Source of the DNA: Muribaculaceae bacterium | Lineage (GTDB): Bacteria > Bacteroidota > Bacteroidia > Bacteroidales > Muribaculaceae | Direction: 5' to 3' | NCBI GenBank assembly: GCA_017454355.1 | Contig: JAFTDD010000085.1 | Location: 1-54,304 of the forward strand | Length of the DNA stretch: 54,304 nucleotides | In this document: piece after piece, positions 7,025 to 53,945 of the stretch | Position numbering within the stretch: position 1 is the stretch's first letter | Layout of the letters: every line of letters starts with the position of its first letter | Made by a program: the position numbers and the translations under genes | Notes under the pieces: generated by a model | The model's database searches: none | What the model was told of the DNA's origin: nothing | The model's input: the letters and a program-made list of their open reading frames with translations, nothing else

Positions 7025-7105
7025 TATTTTCGTGAATAATTTATCTCCCGTAAATTCTCGTGAATTCTCGTAAATTATTTTGATTATCCTTAATTCCGCA
7101 ACTCT

Positions 7106-7290
7106 CCAACCTCTCGTCTATTTACGTCTATTTATATCTTTTGGTATATTTCTCGTAAATTTTCGTAAAATCACGTAAATTAATTATAAATAACAGAAAA
7201 TTAAATATTTACGAGAATTTACGAGAACGATTTTACGAATTTTACGTGAGAATAATAGACGAAAATAGACGGAAATAGACGAGAGGTTGG
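7106..7290. repeat. Nested inverted repeat, 28-bp outer arms
   Basis: Outer arms 7106-7133 (starts CCAACCTCTCGTC) and 7263-7290 (ends GACGAGAGGTTGG) are inverted with one mismatch. Inside lie further inverted AT-rich blocks made of CGTAAATT/ACGAGAATTT units. The structure begins 20 bp downstream of the pgpH-like stop codon and can serve as its terminator or mRNA 3' structure. Confidence 0.85.
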
Positions 7291-20153: not shown

Positions 20154-20275
20154 TCTCCCGTGAATTTCCGTGAATTATCGTGAATAAAATATTTACGGAA
20201 ATTCACGAAAATTCACGGGAGATTAATTTTCGGAAATTTTCGAGAATTTTCGAGAGATAAAATATTGAGTTGCGG
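20154..20275. repeat. Long AT-rich inverted repeat plus GTTGCGG tail
   Basis: Left arm 20154-20185 (TCTCCCGTGAATTTCCGTGA...) and right arm 20192-20221 (ends AAAATTCACGGGAGA) are inverted with a few mismatches and are built from CGTGAATT units. Then follows GAGAGATAAAATATTGAGTTGCGG in shortened form, the tail shared with 12070-12094 and 31873-31896. Confidence 0.85.
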
Positions 20276-20953: not shown

Positions 20954-20981
20954 TTTGCACTTCGTACTTCACACTTCACAC
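20954..20981 (+). repeat. TTYGTRC heptamer array, 4 units, upstream of ampG-like gene
   Basis: TTTGCAC, TTCGTAC, TTCACAC, TTCACAC in tandem, followed by a T-run. It occupies the -33 region of the presumed promoter for the permease gene. Confidence 0.9.
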
Positions 20982-20989
20982 TTTTTTAT

Positions 20990-20997
20990 TAACTTTG
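20990..20997 (+). promoter_or_regulatory. -7 element (TAACTTTG) before the AmpG-like gene
   Basis: TAACTTTG fits TAnnTTTG; no good TTG lies 19-20 bp upstream because a heptamer array fills that place. The expected leader is about 40 bases. Confidence 0.5.
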
Positions 20998-21044: not shown

Positions 21045-22913
21045 ATGAGCGAGAAACCAACAAGCAGCAAGCGTTCGCCGTGGGCATGGATTCCAACGTT
21101 GTACTTTGCCCAAGGGCTGCCTTATGTGGCTGTGATGACCATCACGGTGATTATGTACAAACGATTGGGAATGTCTAACACTGACATTGCCTTATATACG
21201 GGTTGGTTGGGGCTGCCATGGGTAATCAAGCCCTTTTGGAGTCCTTTTATTGACATTTTCAAGACAAAACGATGGTGGATCTTGACAATGCAGTGGCTGG
21301 TCGCTATAGCATTGGCCGCAATCGCCTTTACAATACCGACAAGTTGGTGGGTGCAACTCACACTAGCCATATTCATGCTGATGGGCTTTGCCAGCGCGAC
21401 CCACGACATCGCCGCCGACGGCTTCTATATGCTCGCTCTTACCGAACATGAGCAATCACTGTTTGTTGGTATTCGCAGCACATTCTACCGCATCGCGACC
21501 GTTGCAGGGCAAGGACTTCTCGTAATCCTCGCGGGCCTGATTGAGATGAATAGCGGCCTTGAGCCAATGGAATTGAATATCACGGTCGATCCCGCAACGA
21601 CAACAAACGTCATGCAAACCAATGGAGACCGCCACAATCAAGCACTGGCTTTTGTGCCATCGGCCAATGACATCACGTTGTCCACCAAAGCCCCGGCCAC
21701 CATAAACACTGACAGCGCGACTATCGATTACGCTGAATACATCAGCGCCCGACGCGCCTATATCGACTCGCTCAACATAAGCAACGGTTTCTACGCACGC
21801 GAGCAGGTGGCCACAAGCGCAACCGGCGCCAAGGACACCACCGCACTCGAACGGTTTATAATCAAGCACTTTGGAGAAACAAAAACAGAAGGCAAGGCCA
21901 TAAACCGCAATACAGCCATTGTTGAAATAAAACTCTCTCAAAAGCCCGAAGACGGCAAAAGTTATGTATTCATCGTCAGTCAAAGTAAAGGCACAACCGA
22001 TGTGCAACTTGACGCGGCCATGCAGCGCTTTGAGGTGAATAGCGGTAATTGGGACAAACCCATGTACCTGTTATTCACCGTTGACCCGAAAGTCAAGGAG
22101 AAAGCGCAAGCAACCTTCATAGGAACCTCGGGCAACATTCCAATGGCATGGATGATTGTATTTGCCACATTGAGCATATTCTTCTTCATTATCGTTATTT
22201 ATCACACCTACGCGCTGCCAAAGCCAACCACCGATTCAAGTGATACGGTAATGACACCTAAAGCGATTATAAAGGACTTTATCAACACTTTCAAGACATT
22301 CTTCACCAAATTCCCGCTTTGGCAGACTATCGCCGCGATCGCGTTCATGCTGCTATACCGTTTCCCCGAAGCTCAACTGACCAAGATTATCATGCCGTTC
22401 CTCATCGACCCGATTGACAAAGGCGGACTGGCTTTAAGCACCGGCGAGGTTGGGCTTGTGTATGGCACAGTGGGCATTATCGGCCTCACTTTGGGCGGCA
22501 TCATCGGCGGCATTGTTGCCGCCAAAGGTGGTCTCAAACGATGGCTATTGCCGATGGCATGGAGCATGTCACTGACCTGCCTCACGTTTGTTTATCTCGC
22601 GTTCACACAGGACCAGTCTCTGCTTACCATAAACATATGCGTCTTTATTGAGCAATTCGGCTACGGTTTCGGCTTCACAGCCTATATGTTATACCTGATT
22701 TATTATAGCGAGGGCAAATATAAGACAGCGCACTATGCCATATGCACAGGCTTCATGGCCCTGTCAATGATGATGGGCATGATGGCCGGATGGCTGCAAG
22801 ACATGATTGGCTACAAGAGGTTCTTTGTTTGGACCATCATCTGCTGCATCTTCACCATCGGCGCGGCAACGATTGTCAAGGTAGACCCAAATTTCGGACG
22901 CAAAAAGGATTAA
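21045..22913 (+). CDS. ampG: AmpG-like muropeptide permease (MFS) with periplasmic insertion
   Basis: The 622-residue protein begins with the AmpG signature (WIPTLYFAQGLPYVAVMTIT; GWLGLPWVIKPFWSPFID; ASATHDIAADGFYM). Five membrane segments lie within residues 12-165, six or seven more within 365-610. Between TM5 and TM6 is a hydrophilic insertion of about 190 residues (about 170-360) that should face the periplasm; E. coli AmpG (about 490 residues) has none. AmpG proteins import anhydro-muropeptides or GlcNAc-MurNAc fragments for cell-wall recycling. The downstream NamZ-like gene, 29 bp away, supports this. Codon use is somewhat more AT-rich than in the following genes. Confidence 0.85.
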   Translation: MSEKPTSSKRSPWAWIPTLYFAQGLPYVAVMTITVIMYKRLGMSNTDIALYTGWLGLPWVIKPFWSPFIDIFKTKRWWILTMQWLVAIALAAIAFTIPTSWWVQLTLAIFMLMGFASATHDIAADGFYMLALTEHEQSLFVGIRSTFYRIATVAGQGLLVILAGLIEMNSGLEPMELNITVDPATTTNVMQTNGDRHNQALAFVPSANDITLSTKAPATINTDSATIDYAEYISARRAYIDSLNISNGFYAREQVATSATGAKDTTALERFIIKHFGETKTEGKAINRNTAIVEIKLSQKPEDGKSYVFIVSQSKGTTDVQLDAAMQRFEVNSGNWDKPMYLLFTVDPKVKEKAQATFIGTSGNIPMAWMIVFATLSIFFFIIVIYHTYALPKPTTDSSDTVMTPKAIIKDFINTFKTFFTKFPLWQTIAAIAFMLLYRFPEAQLTKIIMPFLIDPIDKGGLALSTGEVGLVYGTVGIIGLTLGGIIGGIVAAKGGLKRWLLPMAWSMSLTCLTFVYLAFTQDQSLLTINICVFIEQFGYGFGFTAYMLYLIYYSEGKYKTAHYAICTGFMALSMMMGMMAGWLQDMIGYKRFFVWTIICCIFTIGAATIVKVDPNFGRKKD

Positions 22914-24175: not shown

Positions 24176-24335
24176 AAGGTTGAGAGGTTGAGCGTTGAGA
24201 GGTTGAGCCATTTGCTGTCGCAAATGGGAATAAATGTAGGGCCTGGCCTTGGCCTAGCCGCCCTAGAGCAGAACTATTATCCCCAAGCGCGCCAGCGCGA
24301 GGCTCAACCCCTCAACCCTCAACCCCTCAACCCCT
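24176..24335. repeat. Composite dispersed repeat of about 160 bp, copy 1
   Basis: Order: array of GGTTGAG/GTTGAGA units, hairpin CATTTGC-tgtc-GCAAATG, GGGAATAAA, TGTAGGGCCTGGCC module (24235-24260), ACTATTATCCCC, hairpin GCGC-gcca-GCGC, GGCTCAACC and an array of CTCAACCC units that can pair with the first array. Copy 2 is at 41438-41597 and a disrupted copy spans 46737-47040. It starts directly after the namZ stop codon. Confidence 0.92.
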
Positions 24336-28490: not shown

Positions 28491-28503
28491 TGATAATAAC
28501 GAC

Positions 28504-28524
28504 TATCAACTAACGACTAACAAC
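28504..28524 (+). repeat. TAACRAC heptamer array in the kinase leader
   Basis: TATCAAC, TAACGAC, TAACAAC, then TAAAAAT and the ATG of the kinase gene after one further base. Confidence 0.75.
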
Positions 28525-28531
28525 TAAAAAT

Positions 28532-31716: not shown

Positions 31717-31896
31717 CCGCAACCTTGAATATGCTCACGAAAATTTCCGATTTTTTTCTCACGTAAAATCCGTAAAACTTTACGTAAAACCCGTAAAATA
31801 TTTATTTACGATATTTTACGATAAATTTTACGGATTTTACGTGATAACTTTTCGGGAATTTTCGATAATTTTCGAGAGAGAAATATCGGGTTGCGG
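31717..31896. repeat. Nested inverted-repeat element, CCGCAAC/GTTGCGG ends, 180 bp
   Basis: Outer ends CCGCAAC (31717-31723) and GTTGCGG (31890-31896). Inside is a long palindrome with perfect 19-bp arms (31759-31777, TCACGTAAAATCCGTAAAA; 31826-31844) made of CGTAAAA units. Head and tail match the 65-bp element at 12030-12094, as if that element had been opened by insertion of the inner palindrome. The rest of the gap up to 32126 is AT-rich without a gene. Confidence 0.85.
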
Positions 31897-32126
31897 ATTT
31901 TTTGCGGATTTTTTGATAAAGAATGACCGAATCTTTAGAAAAATACTTGCAAACCTCAAATTTTTTAACGAAATTTGCAATCAAGTTGTGTGTTGCAATG
32001 GTTTTAGCCGTCTCTAAATTAATGCAAAATTGCTAAAATCAACGAAATGCATCTCTTTTCAGTATTAATCCATCAACAAATCAATCCCAGCAATGGCTAT
32101 TAAAATGCTTATTTTTTGCTAGTTTT

Positions 32127-41437: not shown

Positions 41438-41597
41438 CGTTGAGAGGTTGAGCGTTAAGAGGTTGAGCCATTTGCTAGCGCAAATGGGAATAAATGTAGG
41501 GCTTGGCCTTGGCCTGGCCGCTTGTGACGACAAGACTATTATCCCCGAGCGCGCCAGCGCGAGGCTCAACCCCTCAACCCCACAACCCCTCAACCTT
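41438..41597. repeat. Composite dispersed repeat of about 160 bp, copy 2
   Basis: Same order as at 24176: GGTTGAG/GTTGAGA array, hairpin CATTTGC-tagc-GCAAATG, TGTAGGGCTTGGCC module (41495-41520), ACTATTATCCCCGAGCGCGC, and a CTCAACCC array. Starts immediately after the recQ stop. The loop of the hairpin differs (tgtc against tagc) while arms are the same. Confidence 0.92.
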
Positions 41598-41670: not shown

Positions 41671-43614
41671 ATGAAAACAATTGGCAAAATCATGCTGGCC
41701 GGCGCGATTGGCGTTGGCGCGTTACTCGCGGTAGCGGCAAGCGACCCCGTGTTAATGACCATCAACGGCAAGGACGTGCATTTGAGCGAGTTCAACTATC
41801 TCTACAACAAGAACTCGCAGCAACAGGTCGAGAAAGAGAGCCTTGACCGCTATGTTGACCGTTTTGTTACCTATAAACTTAAGGTAGCCGATGCCGAGGC
41901 CGCCGGCGTGGACACCACCAAGGCTTTCCGCGATGAACTTGAGGGCTACCGCAAGGACATCGTCGGCCCATTCCTGGCCGATAGCAGCGCCATCGACCGC
42001 GAGGCCCACCGGCTCTACGCCCACCACCTGCGCAACGTCGATGTCGACCACATGATGCTCATGCCGGGCAAGACCGTCGACGAGCAGCACCGCCAACTCG
42101 CACTCATGGACAGCCTGCGTGGCCGCATCCTCGCCGGCGAGAGTTGGGACAGCATTGCCGTCCACTACAGTGCCGACCCGTCGGTCAGGCGCAACATGGG
42201 TCATTACGGCTACGTGATGGCCGGCGTTTTCCCCGCCGCATGGGAGAATGTTGCCTTTGAGACACCCGTGGGTCAAATCAGCCAGCCGTTTGCCACCAAA
42301 TATGGCGTACACATGTTGCGCGTCAATGCCGAGCGCCCCGACGAAGGCTCGGTGCTCACCGCCCATATCCTCAAAATGTTTGACCGCAACAAACTCAACG
42401 ACAGCATCAAGGCCGCCATGCTCGCCGAGATGGAACTCGTGTGTGACTCTATCCAAGCCGGCGCCGACTTCACCGAGATGGCCGCCCGCCATAGCGACGA
42501 CTTCCAGACCAAGAGCCGCGGCGGTATGCTGCCCTGGGTGTCGCGCGGACGGATGGTGCCCGAGTTTGAAAACGTGGCATTCTCGTTGGCCAACGGCGAG
42601 GTGAGCCGCCCCGTGGAGAGCGTCTTCGGCTACCACATCATCAAGCGCATCGACAGCCGCCCGACGCCGTCGTTCGACGAGTTGCGCGACCGCATCGTCA
42701 AGACCATCACCAACGACGAGGAACTATCAAAGGCTCCGCGCCAGGCGGTGATTGACCGCATGAAGGCTCAATACGGCTTCAAGATGGACAAGGGCCTGGA
42801 TAAGTGGATTGACAAAGCGCTGTCCAAGGCGGGCGGTTACGACAAGGCGTTTGTCGAGAATGTGATGCGCAAATCGAACCAGACGGCTTGCTCCTTTGCC
42901 GGACGCAAACTCAGCGTGGGAGACCTCTCGTCGAAACTCGACACGCTGCCCATCACCAACCGCACCTACGCTATCGACTATATCAAGACGCAACTCGCCG
43001 CAGAGGCCGACAACGCCGTCATGGAGCATTATTCCAACCATATCATCGACGACAACGCCGACTTCCGCAACCTGATGGGCGAATATCGCGATGGCATGCT
43101 GCTCTTTGAAATCAGCGACCGCCGCATCTGGAAAGGCGCCAGCGCCGATACCATTGGTCTCGAGCGCTACTACGCCGAGCACCGCAACAACTACCTCTGG
43201 ACCGAGCCTCGCTTCAAGGGTGTCATCCTCAGTGCTCGCAACGACAGCGTACTGCAGGCAGTCAAGGCCGACCTGGCCAAGATCGACCGCAGTCTGCCCG
43301 TCGACACAATCGCCCAAAAACTCTTCCACGCCCACGGCGGCGCCATCAAGATGGACCGCATGACCGTCAAGAAGGGCGACAACAAGTTGGCCGACTATGT
43401 CATCTTTGGAACCGGCACAGAGATGCCCTACAAGAACTACGCCACCGCGATGGTGCTGGATGGCGGTCTTATTGACCAACCTACCGGTTTGGACGACGTC
43501 CGCGGACGCGTCACCAGCGACTATCAAGATGTACTCGAGAAGCGTTGGATTGAGGAACTCAAAGCCAAGTATCCGGTCAAAATCAACAAGAAAGTGTTAG
43601 ACACTCTCCGGTAA
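41671..43614 (+). CDS. Periplasmic peptidyl-prolyl isomerase with two parvulin domains
   Basis: The 647-residue protein has a signal peptide (MKTIGKIMLAGAIGVGALLAVAA). A SurA-like helical N-terminal chaperone part (about 25-120) precedes parvulin domain 1 (about 125-230, GHYGYVMAGVFPAAWENVAF, GQISQPFATKYGVHMLRV) and domain 2 (about 230-330, GGMLPWVSRGRMVPEFENVA, GEVSRPVESVFGYHIIKR), then a long helical C-terminal part ending with a third degenerate parvulin-like region. It probably assists outer-membrane protein folding. First gene of a parvulin-SurA-OstA operon. Confidence 0.88.
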   Translation: MKTIGKIMLAGAIGVGALLAVAASDPVLMTINGKDVHLSEFNYLYNKNSQQQVEKESLDRYVDRFVTYKLKVADAEAAGVDTTKAFRDELEGYRKDIVGPFLADSSAIDREAHRLYAHHLRNVDVDHMMLMPGKTVDEQHRQLALMDSLRGRILAGESWDSIAVHYSADPSVRRNMGHYGYVMAGVFPAAWENVAFETPVGQISQPFATKYGVHMLRVNAERPDEGSVLTAHILKMFDRNKLNDSIKAAMLAEMELVCDSIQAGADFTEMAARHSDDFQTKSRGGMLPWVSRGRMVPEFENVAFSLANGEVSRPVESVFGYHIIKRIDSRPTPSFDELRDRIVKTITNDEELSKAPRQAVIDRMKAQYGFKMDKGLDKWIDKALSKAGGYDKAFVENVMRKSNQTACSFAGRKLSVGDLSSKLDTLPITNRTYAIDYIKTQLAAEADNAVMEHYSNHIIDDNADFRNLMGEYRDGMLLFEISDRRIWKGASADTIGLERYYAEHRNNYLWTEPRFKGVILSARNDSVLQAVKADLAKIDRSLPVDTIAQKLFHAHGGAIKMDRMTVKKGDNKLADYVIFGTGTEMPYKNYATAMVLDGGLIDQPTGLDDVRGRVTSDYQDVLEKRWIEELKAKYPVKINKKVLDTLR

Positions 43615-43651
43615 TGCATAATTTGTAATGCATAATTCATAATTGCAGCCA

Positions 43652-45046
43652 ATGAAGAAATATTTTGCACTCGGTGCTTCCCGCTTTATGCTACGCTCTT
43701 TCTGCTTGGTGCTTTGTACTTCGTACTTCGTACTTTGCATGGCCCAGAACAATATAGCCGAAGAGGTGGTGTGGGTTGTGGGCGACGAGCCGATTTTCAA
43801 GAGCGAAGTCGAGGAGCAATACCTCAACATGCAATATGAGCGTATGGAGTTGCCCGGCAACCCCTACTGCGTCATCCCCGAGCAGATGGCCATCGACAAG
43901 TTATTCCTCCACCAAGCGAAACTCGACACGGTGCAGGTGCAGGACACTCAGGTGGCAAAGGAGGTTGACAGCCGCATCAACTATTATATTGCCAACCTGG
44001 GCAGCAAGGAGAAGGTGGAAGAATACTTCCACCAGCCCATGCCGCTCATGCGCGAGCGCCTGATGGATATGTTCCGCGACCAATATGCCATCCAGATGGT
44101 GCAGCGGTCGCTCACCGAGAAGGTCAAAGCCACGCCTAGTGACGTGCGCCGCTTCTTCAACACCATCCCCAAGGACTCGCTCCCCTACATCCCGCTGCAG
44201 GTGGTGGTGCAAATCATCACCGTCAACCCCGTCATCCCGCAGCAGGAAATCGATGAGGTTAAGGCGCGCCTGCGCGACTATGCGGCACGCGTGACCAGTG
44301 GCGAGAGTGAATTCTCGACGCTCGCCATCCTCTACAGCGAGGACCAGGCCACCAGCGTTTATGGCGGCGAGACGGGCTTCCAGAGCCGCTCGGTGCTCCT
44401 GCCGGAGTATGCCACCGCGGCATTCAACTTGAGCGACACCAAGCGAGTGAGCAACATTGTCGATGCCGAAGACGGCTACCACATCATCCAACTCATCGAG
44501 AAGCGTGGCGACCGCATCAACACCCGCCATATCCTGCTCAGGCCGCGCGTGTCGGACAGCGACCTCACCGACGCCATCAACCGTCTTGACTCGGTGCGCA
44601 GCGAAATCGTTGCCGGCAAGGTGGACTTCAAGGACGCCGCGTTCTATATCTCACAGGATAAGGACTCGCGCAACAATAGCGGCATTATGCTCAACGAGCA
44701 GACCCATAGCAGCCGCTTTGAGATGCAGGATCTGCCGGCCGAGGTGGGTAAACTCATCGACAAGATGCAGCCGGGCGACGTGAGCGAGCCGTTTGTGATG
44801 ACCAACGCCAAGACCCACCGCGACCAAGTGTGCATCGTCCGCCTGATGGAGCGCATCGACGGTCACAAGGCAGACATCGGCGAGGACTACCAGACCATTA
44901 AGGACATGTGTGAGGCAAACCAGAAGCAAAAGATTATCACCAACTGGATTAAGGAAAAGCAGCGCACCACCTACGTGTGGATTGAGCCGGCATGGCGCGA
45001 CTGCGAGTTCCGTTACGACTGGCTGAACCAGGATGATAGCAAGTAG
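43652..45046 (+). CDS. SurA-like periplasmic chaperone/peptidyl-prolyl isomerase
   Basis: The 464-residue protein has an N-terminal SurA core (VVWVVGDEPIFKSEVEEQYL), followed by two parvulin domains (about 185-285, GGETGFQSRSVLLPEYATAA; and about 290-395, NSGIMLNEQTHSSRFEMQDL) and a C-terminal helix that packs on the core. The role is folding of outer-membrane barrels in the periplasm. The most striking part is the signal peptide: residues about 5-30 are encoded by eleven degenerate 7-base repeats (43664-43740), giving a 7-residue periodicity (FALGASR, FMLRSFC, LVLCTSY, FVLCMAQ). Cleavage is expected after CMA. The stop codon overlaps the OstA-like start by 14 bp. Confidence 0.9.
   Translation: MKKYFALGASRFMLRSFCLVLCTSYFVLCMAQNNIAEEVVWVVGDEPIFKSEVEEQYLNMQYERMELPGNPYCVIPEQMAIDKLFLHQAKLDTVQVQDTQVAKEVDSRINYYIANLGSKEKVEEYFHQPMPLMRERLMDMFRDQYAIQMVQRSLTEKVKATPSDVRRFFNTIPKDSLPYIPLQVVVQIITVNPVIPQQEIDEVKARLRDYAARVTSGESEFSTLAILYSEDQATSVYGGETGFQSRSVLLPEYATAAFNLSDTKRVSNIVDAEDGYHIIQLIEKRGDRINTRHILLRPRVSDSDLTDAINRLDSVRSEIVAGKVDFKDAAFYISQDKDSRNNSGIMLNEQTHSSRFEMQDLPAEVGKLIDKMQPGDVSEPFVMTNAKTHRDQVCIVRLMERIDGHKADIGEDYQTIKDMCEANQKQKIITNWIKEKQRTTYVWIEPAWRDCEFRYDWLNQDDSK
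43664..43740 (+). repeat. TTYGTRC heptamer array, 11 units, encoding a signal peptide
   Basis: Units in order: TTTGCAC, TCGGTGC, TTCCCGC, TTTATGC, TACGCTC, TTTCTGC, TTGGTGC, TTTGTAC, TTCGTAC, TTCGTAC, TTTGCAT. Most fit TTYGTRC, with more drift at the 5' end. The period of seven cycles the reading frame every 21 bases. Confidence 0.9.
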
Positions 45047-46736
45047 CAGGACTAAGAACAAAGTACAAAGCACGAAGTACGAAGTACGAAGTGACAATCG
45101 GCGCGCGCGGTGGACGACCATCTTCCTGGTGGTGGCCATCGCGCTCGGCGCTATCGCCGGAACCCAGCGTCCGGGTCAAAGCCGGGCAAGGCAAGGGACG
45201 CCGGGCAAGGCGGCACCGTCACGCATCCAGCCACAAATTCCAAAGGCCGACCGGTATCAAGCCAACCGCGTCTTTATCGAGCACGCCGACTCGCTGATGG
45301 CCAACGAGAACGTCAGCACTGAGTACCAAGTTCTCATGGGCAACATCCGTTTCCGCCGTGCCGATATGTATATGTACTGCGACAGCGCCCATTTCTACGA
45401 CAAGACCAACTCACTCGACGCCTTCGGCAACGTGAAGATGACCCAAGGCGACACACTGTTTGTCTACGCCGACGTCCTCCACTACATCGGCGAGGTGCAG
45501 TTAGCCCAACTGCGTTATAACGTGCGGCTTGAAAACCGCAACGCGGTGCTGCTCACCGATAGCCTCGACTACGACGTGCAAGGCGGCATCGGCTACTACT
45601 TCGACGGCGGAGTGCTGCGCGACGACCGTAACGCCACTGAACTCAGTTCACGCAACGGACGCTATGACGTCCACTCTAAAATCGCCGAGTTCGCCACCGA
45701 TGTGAGATTGCTCAACGACCAGTATGAGATGAACACCAACTTCCTCACATACAGCACTCGGACCCACATTGCCACCATCACCGAGATGACCGAAATCCTG
45801 GGTGACAGCATCTCCATCTACACCAGCAGCGGCTGGTATGACACCAACAAGGACGACGGCACGCTCTATGATCGCTCGCTCATCGTCACGCGCGATGGAC
45901 AGACGCTGCAAGGCGACACGGTTTATTACGACCGCCGCAAGACCTACGGCGAGGCACGAGGCAACGTTGAAATCACCGACACCGCCCATAGCGTTATCCT
46001 CAACGGCGACTACGGCTATCACGACGATGTGGCCCACTATAGTTACGTCACCCGCAATGCCCGGGCACGCGAGTTTTCGCAGAAGGACACCCTCTATTTG
46101 CGGGCCGACACACTGCTCACTCTGCTCGAGGGCGAGGACAGCGTGCGCGTGATGCGAGCCATCGACGACGTGCGGTTCTACCGCAAGGATGTGCAGGGCA
46201 TGTGCGACTCGATGCGCGCCAGCCAAGCCGACTCAATCCTTTATATGTACCGCAACGCGGTGGTGTGGAACGAGGGGAGACAGGTAGCCAGCGAGCAAAT
46301 CAATGTCCACATGGCCGACAGCACCGTCGATTGGGCTGTGCTGCCCGTGCCGGGCATCGTGGTGAGCCATGTGGGCGAGGACTACTACGACCAACTATAC
46401 GGCAAGAAGATGCGAGCCACGTTTGAGAACGGCGAGATGCGCCGCCTCGATGTGGACGGCAACGTGATGGCAATCATGTTCCCGCAGGAAGAGGACAGCA
46501 CCTATAACAAAATGGTCAACGCCGAGTCGAGTTACCTCACCCTGTTGCTCAAAGAAAAACAGGAAGTGGAGAAACTCACGATGTGGCCCGAAGTGACCGG
46601 CCAGGTGACACCTCTCTACCTCGTCAAGAAATCGCAACTGCTGTTGCCGCAATTCGTCTGGTACGAAGACCGACGGCCCCGCTCTCCACAGGACATCCTT
46701 GAAAGTACAAAGTACGAAGTACAAAGTACAAAGTAG
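45033..46736 (+). CDS. OstA/LptA-like outer-membrane assembly protein
   Basis: The 567-residue protein has one N-terminal hydrophobic segment (TTIFLVVAIALGAIAG, about 28-44) as signal or anchor, then many OstA/LptA-type beta repeats (ADMYMYCDSAHFYDKTNSLD, GNVKMTQGDTLFVYADVLHY, GDTVYYDRRKTYGEARGNVE). LptA-type jellyrolls carry lipopolysaccharide across the periplasm. It overlaps the SurA-like gene by 14 bp. Residues about 10-20 (KVQSTKYEVRS) and the last 11 (ESTKYEVQSTK) are translated GTACRAA heptamers, so both ends of the protein are repeat-derived. Internal ATG starts are absent before the hydrophobic segment, which supports the repeat being translated. Confidence 0.85.
   Translation: MIASSRTKNKVQSTKYEVRSDNRRARWTTIFLVVAIALGAIAGTQRPGQSRARQGTPGKAAPSRIQPQIPKADRYQANRVFIEHADSLMANENVSTEYQVLMGNIRFRRADMYMYCDSAHFYDKTNSLDAFGNVKMTQGDTLFVYADVLHYIGEVQLAQLRYNVRLENRNAVLLTDSLDYDVQGGIGYYFDGGVLRDDRNATELSSRNGRYDVHSKIAEFATDVRLLNDQYEMNTNFLTYSTRTHIATITEMTEILGDSISIYTSSGWYDTNKDDGTLYDRSLIVTRDGQTLQGDTVYYDRRKTYGEARGNVEITDTAHSVILNGDYGYHDDVAHYSYVTRNARAREFSQKDTLYLRADTLLTLLEGEDSVRVMRAIDDVRFYRKDVQGMCDSMRASQADSILYMYRNAVVWNEGRQVASEQINVHMADSTVDWAVLPVPGIVVSHVGEDYYDQLYGKKMRATFENGEMRRLDVDGNVMAIMFPQEEDSTYNKMVNAESSYLTLLLKEKQEVEKLTMWPEVTGQVTPLYLVKKSQLLLPQFVWYEDRRPRSPQDILESTKYEVQSTK
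45056..45090 (+). repeat. GTACRAA heptamer array, 5 units, coding for the OstA-like N-terminus
   Basis: GAACAAA, GTACAAA, GCACGAA, GTACGAA, GTACGAA. This is the reverse complement of the TTYGTRC array in the preceding gene and begins 10 bp after that gene's stop. Confidence 0.92.
46705..46736 (+). repeat. GTACRAA heptamer array, 4 units plus stop, at the OstA-like C-terminus
   Basis: GTACAAA, GTACGAA, GTACAAA, GTACAAA, GTAG; the TAG stop ends the array. Confidence 0.92.
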
Positions 46737-46862: not shown

Positions 46863-46958
46863 AACATGAATTACCATAAATCATCCATTAATTATTCATA
46901 AATTTTTAATTTTATTTATAACATTTAGAATAAATATTCATGGATAATTCATGGTAAT
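46863..46958. repeat. Inverted pair of AACATGAATTACCAT elements
   Basis: Left half AACATGAATTACCATAAAT... and right half ...ATGGATAATTCATGGTAATT are inverted copies of the element at 12235-12283. Confidence 0.75.
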
Positions 46959-46972
46959 TGCTCCCATTCGGT

Positions 46973-53837: not shown

Positions 53838-53945
53838 AACATGAATATCCATTAATACCCATTAATCTTATAGAGAAAACTCAAGTTCCCATGTCCTCAT
53901 GTGCTCTTGTCTATAATTAATGGATAATTAATGGATATTCATGTT
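53838..53945. repeat. Inverted pair of AACATGAATATCCATTAAT elements
   Basis: Left half AACATGAATATCCATTAATA and right half ATTAATGGATATTCATGTT are inverted copies; the element includes TGCTCTTGTCTATAATT, akin to 12235-12260. It may serve as terminator of the aldo/keto reductase gene. Confidence 0.8.

Follow-up and report, generated by a model that had tools for sequence, protein, structure and literature searches.

A dispersed TTYGTRC heptad repeat in the predicted signal peptides of a SurA-like protein and other putatively exported proteins of a Muribaculaceae bacterium

The SurA-like gene and its neighbors

We analyzed a 54,304-nucleotide stretch (the window) of the genome of a Muribaculaceae bacterium. 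The window includes the gene order recQ-ppiC-surA-ostA-mutL, in which the gene for a SurA-like protein is the second of two tandem rotamase genes. The protein misses the NCBIfam cut-off for the SurA equivalog (64.8 of 394 bits), so we call it only SurA-like, and we use surA as shorthand for the gene. A tandem array of heptads covers most of its predicted signal peptide. Just upstream is a tract of another heptad (TAATGCA/TAATTCA), which gives ppiC its stop codon and fills the spacer between the two genes. The OstA-like gene directly after surA has two more TTYGTRC arrays, one at each end and both antisense. Positions are given in Table 1.

The window also contains arrays of other heptads (TAGCATG, CTAACAT and TAACGAC types, at 1434-1541, 2604-2714 and 28497-28530), and such arrays are often at gene edges. 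There are A+T-rich tracts with a period of 9-11 bp, or about one helical turn, at 7049-7282, 20158-20258, 31762-31915, 46865-46959 and 53840-53937 (among them, tracts of the TTTTCGTAAA and ATTCACGAAA types). At 24177-24335 and 41438-41595, 15-mer repeats with GGTTGAG/CTCAACC occur as inverted pairs.

Table 1. Features of the window and arrays elsewhere in the source genome (by locus)
Feature	Position or locus	Strand or orientation	Remarks
SurA/PpiC-like peptidyl-prolyl isomerase gene, 464 aa	43652..45046	+	Pfam Rotamase (PF00639), E=1.3e-25; neighbors RecQ, OstA, MutL
Second heptad tract, A+T-rich, TAATGCA/TAATTCA	43611..43644	+	Absent from sister species G087
TTYGTRC array, 11 heptads, surA signal residues 5-30	43664..43740	+	Fit to consensus; G087 DNA unrelated
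Three perfect TTYGTRC units in the surA array	43713..43733	+	
Conserved DNA restarts; cleavage region ..A-Q/NN common to G087	43741..43752	+	G087 alignment resumes
TTYGTRC array, antisense to OstA-like gene, n-region RTKNKVQSTKYEVRS	45048..45092	-	
TTYGTRC array, antisense, OstA-like C-terminal tail ESTKYEVQSTK	46702..46735	-	
Intergenic TTYGTRC array, weaker, outside the 38 counted	20954..20981	+	Sense to gene at 21045
-7 promoter box TAACTTTG, 8 bp after the intergenic array	20990..20997	+	Position hand-counted
Signal-peptide array	surA, window	sense	
Signal-peptide array	L001:5227	sense	MKFGLRSTYFVLRTSYFVLCSCLLLGC; protein without Pfam hit
Signal-peptide array	L001:3895	sense	Protein without Pfam hit
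Signal-peptide array	L005	sense	Protein without Pfam hit
Signal-peptide array	L009	sense	Beta-barrel Pfam hits only, below cut-off
Signal-peptide array	L020:7703	sense	PBP-like lipoprotein
Signal-peptide array	L021:4475	sense	LptE
Signal-peptide array	L025	sense	Outer-membrane efflux protein (OEP)
Signal-peptide array	L012	sense	Contig end; assigned via left flank and G087 counterpart L127
Other coding arrays (9)	GH31 hydrolase, SSF symporter, DUF6056, GYF/CD225, 2-hydroxyacid dehydrogenase, Mfd, L023, OstA both ends	antisense	
Other coding array	L007	sense	Membrane acyltransferase
Other non-coding arrays (8)	L003:4031, L015, L022; L004, L008:9965; L016, L019:4282, L020:4207		First three in leaders; next two beside tRNA genes

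The array in the surA signal peptide

Throughout, the unit consensus is the heptad TTYGTRC, and fit is the number of bases that agree with the tiled consensus. The preliminary description of this DNA, made from the sequence alone, had reported the surA array with exact 7-base spacing and with peptide rows FALGASR/FMLRSFC/LVLCTSY/FVLCMAQ. On re-reading, the coordinates, the unit phase, the spacing and the peptide rows were all correct. The array fits the consensus at 64 of 77 bases, as compared to 52.0 ± 2.7 in synonymous recodings (none of 20,000 equaled the observed fit). Identity at lags of 7, 14 and 21 bases across codons 1-31 adds up to 123, as compared to 89 ± 7.4 in recodings (0/20,000 as high). 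Synonymous recoding rules out that this periodicity arose by chance. Counting from the first unit, the 11 units match at 6, 5, 5, 6, 4, 6, 6, 7, 7, 7 and 5 of 7 bases: units 8-10 are perfect and units 1-7 are degenerate. Taken by themselves, units 1-7 fit at 38 of 49 bases, which was equaled by 38 of 20,000 recodings and at 6 of 54,255 positions in the window (including the arrays themselves).

Judged by eye, the encoded peptide looks like a Sec signal: the predicted signal has positive charges (K2, K3, R11 and R15), a hydrophobic core (SFCLVLCTSYFVLC) and a small residue at -1 (..CMA/QNN). Because units 1-5 carry R11 and R15, the core comes mostly from units 6-11. An ATG at residue 13 is a possible alternative start that would keep most of the core. 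Peak hydropathy over 12 residues is 1.86-2.93 in the repeat-derived signals and 1.92-2.96 in five ordinary orthologs; the surA signal, at 2.30, is within the ordinary range.

Replacement of the signal peptide in surA

Among the genus genomes that we searched, the best match to the surA locus is in a sister species (G087); its genome and the source genome (G000) are both drafts. The two SurA-like proteins are 96% identical from residue 31 onward, and the flanking DNA is 90 and 89% identical. Between these flanks, the window has 127 bp and the sister species has 72 bp, and the two pieces are unrelated. One boundary is close to the ppiC stop codon, and the other falls on the codons for the A-Q/NN cleavage site. 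The 127-bp piece holds both heptad tracts (TAATGCA/TAATTCA and TTYGTRC), while the counterpart of the signal region in the sister species is non-repeat DNA.

We also compared 99 orthologous loci, each with 120 bp of upstream sequence, which reduced to 73 distinct loci after merging duplicates. (Of the 101 genus genomes, 91 had surA matches, and the best 30 of these 91 were taken as loci; the titles of 70 ortholog records name Muribaculaceae, Prevotellaceae, Porphyromonadaceae or Bacteroidales, including two 'Candidatus Sodaliphilus', and many are from rumen or gut.) None of the 73 distinct loci has a TTYGTRC array, and the nearest that any of them gets to three units is 6 mismatches in 21 bases (0 in the window). 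The orthologs' signal peptides have different residues and are encoded by non-repeat DNA, and none of the 99 loci encodes the same residues with unrelated codons, the observation that the preliminary description had named as contrary to its reading. From the cleavage region on, most of the orthologs compared start like AQ-(N/S)N(I/V)AEEV.

The orthologs and the sister-species alignment rule out that the surA signal peptide is a retained ancestral one. Instead, these alignments give good support for the view that it was overwritten by repeat DNA. The simplest reading, given the outgroups, is that the array was gained on the branch to the source genome rather than lost in the sister species.

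A lineage-specific family of heptad arrays

We searched for three-unit matches with up to 1 mismatch. The source genome has 70 matches, which form 38 arrays, and no matches to a reversed control pattern. The reversed pattern had a few matches in other genomes (G003, G007, G092, G318, G327, G370, G371 and G549), and these were to other heptads. In total, 9 of the 101 genus genomes have matches to TTYGTRC: 70 in the source genome, 40 in the sister species, 17 in a more distant congener (G048) and 1 to 3 in each of six others. With no mismatches allowed, three units were found in 2 of 198 genomes at the family level and four units in 2 of 393 genomes at the order level; both pairs include the source genome, and the sister species was outside both draws. 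Because there are matches in so few genomes at each level, the repeat is largely lineage-specific. The array that the preliminary description had noted between genes was confirmed on re-reading. Its suggestion that the signal was created from, or overwritten by, a repeat that also occurs between genes is supported, in the form of overwriting, by both the sister-species comparison and the genome-wide family.

The sister species has 22 arrays in 18 stretches. The more distant congener has 10 related, TTTGTCC-rich arrays; none of these 10 is a clear signal-peptide case, and two of them (L195 and L203) have an open frame in the sense direction that looks weakly coding. By eye, many arrays have A-tracts before them and T-tracts after them, and we noticed no longer inverted repeat in common; a MITE or palindromic element would be about 100-200 bp long, with terminal inverted repeats and a target duplication. 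An A-tract lies within 10 bp upstream of 11 of the 38 arrays in the source genome and 9 of the 22 in the sister species.

TTYGTRC is free of stop codons in all six frames, while of 9 other units that we typed in the source genome, 8 contain a stop in one orientation or both. By hand, we classified 19 of the 38 arrays as coding, and 12 are wholly inside called genes. The DNA that we read from the source genome has 37 arrays of other heptads, with 4 wholly inside called genes and 17 partly over gene ends. The difference in arrays wholly inside genes (12/38 vs. 4/37) is marginal (p = 0.047, by this one criterion).

Placement and orientation of the arrays

The hand classification of the 38 arrays gave 9 in predicted signal peptides, 10 in other coding sequence, 11 of promoter type and 8 in other non-coding DNA. 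Sense arrays read FVL(C/R)T(S/L)Y, with mean hydropathy of 0.5 to 2.2, and antisense arrays read VRSTKYE or VQSTKYK, with mean hydropathy of about -1.4 to -1.5. All 9 of the signal-peptide arrays are sense, while the other coding arrays are 1 sense and 9 antisense (Fisher p = 1.2e-4). If the N-terminal array of the OstA-like gene, which is antisense and in the n-region, is counted as a signal case, then p = 0.001; if the array at a contig end (L012) is also dropped, then p = 0.003; dropping that array alone gives p = 0.0004. Signal peptides account for 9 of 19 coding arrays (p about 2e-12 if signals are 1.4% of coding DNA, which is our own estimate).

Three promoter-type arrays (L014, L018:3152 and L018:9937) have a frame that is open in the sense direction, and for L018:3152 there is even an ATG in the same frame, 47 bp before the array. 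Three non-coding arrays (L015, L019:4282 and L020:4207) have an open frame as well. We kept the first three as promoter type and the other three as non-coding because we judged a -7 box or a missing upstream ATG to be decisive. Treating the three promoter-type arrays as sense coding gives p = 0.0017 for orientation.

We set the starts of the signal-peptide genes by hand, at the upstream ATG. By design, repeat codons count as non-coding in our custom gene caller, and in 6 of the 8 complete genes, including surA, it placed the start downstream of the array. We preferred the upstream ATG because a lipobox or cleavage site closely follows the array and because starting further on would remove most or all of the signal.

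Proposed explanation

We think it likely that TTYGTRC is a lineage-specific, dispersed, stop-free heptad that has been filtered by selection and has been tolerated, or exapted, as the core of signal peptides. Seven is one more than a multiple of three, so a sense array spells one peptide in every frame. Sense copies encode hydrophobic FVL(C/R)T(S/L)Y, and antisense copies encode hydrophilic STKYEV(R/Q). Where a sense array came to sit at the start of a gene for an exported protein, it would take over the n- and h-regions, the old cleavage site or lipobox would stay beside the new core, and the array-derived peptide would still serve as a Sec signal. Other proteins would retain antisense copies in their loops, linkers and termini. 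Change in unit number does not explain the dispersal of the arrays.

The array-derived peptides probably function as signals, and the other array signals probably overwrote earlier ones, as in surA. The placement and orientation of the arrays would be expected if they insert at many places and are retained where the protein can bear them; the pattern was probably set by tolerance and selection and not by targeting.

Copies beside promoters

TAnnTTTG is the -7 motif that was deduced from promoters of Bacteroides fragilis and confirmed in Flavobacterium johnsoniae (PMC7366714). This box is downstream of 11 of 38 arrays in the source genome (nine at 8 bp, one at 9 and one at 15, which is 8 plus one weak unit) and of 7 of 22 in the sister species (six at 8 bp and one at 15). 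A further TAnnTTTG at 24 bp is inside the acyltransferase gene and was left out of the 11. On the other side of the arrays, there are none (0/38 and 0/22). For background, the motif occurs in 7.8% of the 40-bp non-coding windows that precede called genes. The intergenic array in the window has its box at the spacing that is commonest in the family, 8 bp.

The arrays might belong to a DNA element tied to promoters and made up of an A-tract, heptads, a T-tract and a -7 box, with coding copies as by-products at gene starts. Besides the one-sided boxes, most of them at exactly 8 bp, a promoter copy (L011) and the signal-peptide copy in lptE (L021:4475) have the 5' flank AAAAAATAC in common. However, the surA copy lacks a -7 box, as do all 10 arrays in the more distant congener, and most arrays lack an A-tract within 10 bp (see above). 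A role as the -33 element is doubtful as well. Of 105 sites with a box and no array, 38 have a TTG that begins 22-23 bp before the box, so the arrays fall short of a perfect -33 element: they place TTYG, mostly as TTCG, one to two bases off the native TTG position, and we did not adopt the array as a -33 element. Overall, we consider the promoter-linked element to be a possible but rather unlikely explanation for the family. The fixed spacing between array and box may reflect copying of a longer element or selection.

A broader version is that an A-tract, (TTYGTAC)n and a T-tract form a portable, frame-independent module, which would act as promoter DNA next to a -7 box and as a signal (M-KK-YFVLCTSYFF) after an ATG, and which would be kept because it can recruit genes to expression and export. 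We find this idea quite doubtful.

Sharing with the sister species and array length

The sister species has five sense signal-peptide arrays (L126, which is in lptE, L127, L128, L133 and L135). The source genome has a degenerate form of the same signal in its copy of the L133 gene (L205); since this gene adds to the nine in the source genome, there are about 10 distinct genes across both species. (The proteins of L023, L127 and L133 have no Pfam hits.) At least four signal-peptide arrays are common to both species: those of LptE, OEP, the L005 protein and L133/L205. In the other congeners examined, the orthologs of three of these have ordinary signals (10 examined for LptE and 5 each for OEP and the L133 gene). 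We found no match to the L009 gene in the sister species.

Array length bears on the proposal, from the preliminary description, that slippage by 21 bases would change the signal length in frame and slippage by 7 would turn the gene off. Simple-sequence contingency loci, which give phase variation, have tandem units, of lengths not divisible by three, at the 5' ends of genes; TTYGTRC is similar, and its seven-base units would shift the frame (a change of 21 bp would tune, and one of 7 or 14 bp would turn off, export of the SurA-like protein). Two pairs do differ by whole units between the sister species: the DUF6056 coding array by 21 bp, in frame (L006/L129; the frame in the sister species is open for 596 aa), and a non-coding leader array by 7 bp (L022/L133). 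However, the signal arrays that we compared, unlike contingency loci, are short and imperfect and do not vary in 7-bp steps. Across five signal-peptide pairs (the two arrays of L001 were outside this comparison), length is unchanged in four (L005/L128, L025/L135, lptE and L205/L133). The fifth is a PstS-like gene with heptad-like signal DNA in both species, and it is 18 bp shorter in the sister species, which is not a multiple of 7. Short imperfect arrays slip little, and the surA array has only three perfect units. Also, some of the host genes resemble housekeeping genes of the envelope (LptE and SurA-like). We think it very unlikely that surA is a contingency locus. Of the original interpretation, overwriting by a dispersed repeat is supported and the slippage switch, for which there is only indirect support, is not.

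Other non-coding pairs differ by 0 (L015 and L017), -1 (L013) and 6 bp (L019). The last of these has two inverted TTYGTRC arrays, 3 bp apart (L019:4258-4330), and the sister species has them as well (L127).

In the loops of Mfd and a PdxB-like protein, the source genome has a heptad array and the sister species has another insert at the same spot; the congeners that were covered have shorter loops. These loops may be repeat hotspots. The insert in Mfd of the sister species (L191) includes a REP-like CTCCTGAAGGAG palindrome, and the PdxB-like locus of the sister species is L168.

We considered two other explanations. One is an assembly artifact, in which repeats collapsed or chimeric contigs formed in the draft. 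Some arrays are at contig ends (L012 and G087:C26), but at least four of the same genes also carry signal-peptide arrays in a separate genome, and the surA array is inside a 54-kb stretch with the gene order recQ-ppiC-surA-ostA-mutL, so an assembly artifact is extremely unlikely. We give almost no credence to convergence, in which hydrophobic signal codons merely resemble TTYGTRC with no insertion of a repeat: signal peptides naturally use codons for F, V, L, C and Y, and units 1-7 in surA are degenerate, but neither the recodings nor the orthologs reproduce the array with its three perfect units in a row, and the same repeat is found between genes and, antisense, in hydrophilic segments of proteins.

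Relation to known repeats, and implications

We return to our preferred explanation, a dispersed heptad that is tolerated or exapted in signal peptides. TTYGTRC resembles the heptamer direct repeats in having tandem 7-bp units at many places in the genome, and its unit sets it apart from the TAACTGA family. According to MacGregor 2015 (PMC4679880), TAACTGA repeats are found in Beggiatoaceae, Cyanobacteria and some Bacteroidetes; they are also dispersed tandem 7-mers near gene starts, with some in ORFs near protein ends. Most are intergenic, and they show indels between strains in 7-nt steps. Unlike TTYGTRC, TAACTGA has stops in its forward frames; and TTYGTRC recurs in predicted signal peptides, while that paper (PMC4679880) uses neither "signal peptide" nor "signal sequence".

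According to the review by Delihas (PMC2229807), the YPAL/RU-2 repeat of Yersinia is similar in that a small repeat provides part of the predicted signal peptide of YPO1552, but it is a palindromic element of about 168 bp and yields a single putative new protein. TTYGTRC, by contrast, is a tandem repeat of 7 bp, and about ten proteins, some of them conserved, have it in their predicted signals. The palindromic elements of Rickettsia are likewise inserted in frame, and tolerated, in unrelated conserved proteins; they are palindromes of 105-150 bp, and the passages on them in PMC2229807 and PMC10969869 give no orientation rule and no use in signal peptides. Among the literature matches listed, judged by titles and abstract openings, we found none on heptad arrays as recurrent signal peptides.

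The sequences suggest that repeat DNA can repeatedly become a useful part of proteins. If the array-derived peptides work, then they would be a natural replicated experiment on the minimal needs of a signal peptide, with about ten uses of one repeat and with orientation deciding the outcome. They would also be a clear case of repeat DNA entering conserved envelope proteins, and the filled site in the source genome and the unfilled one in the sister species would date the insertion event at surA.
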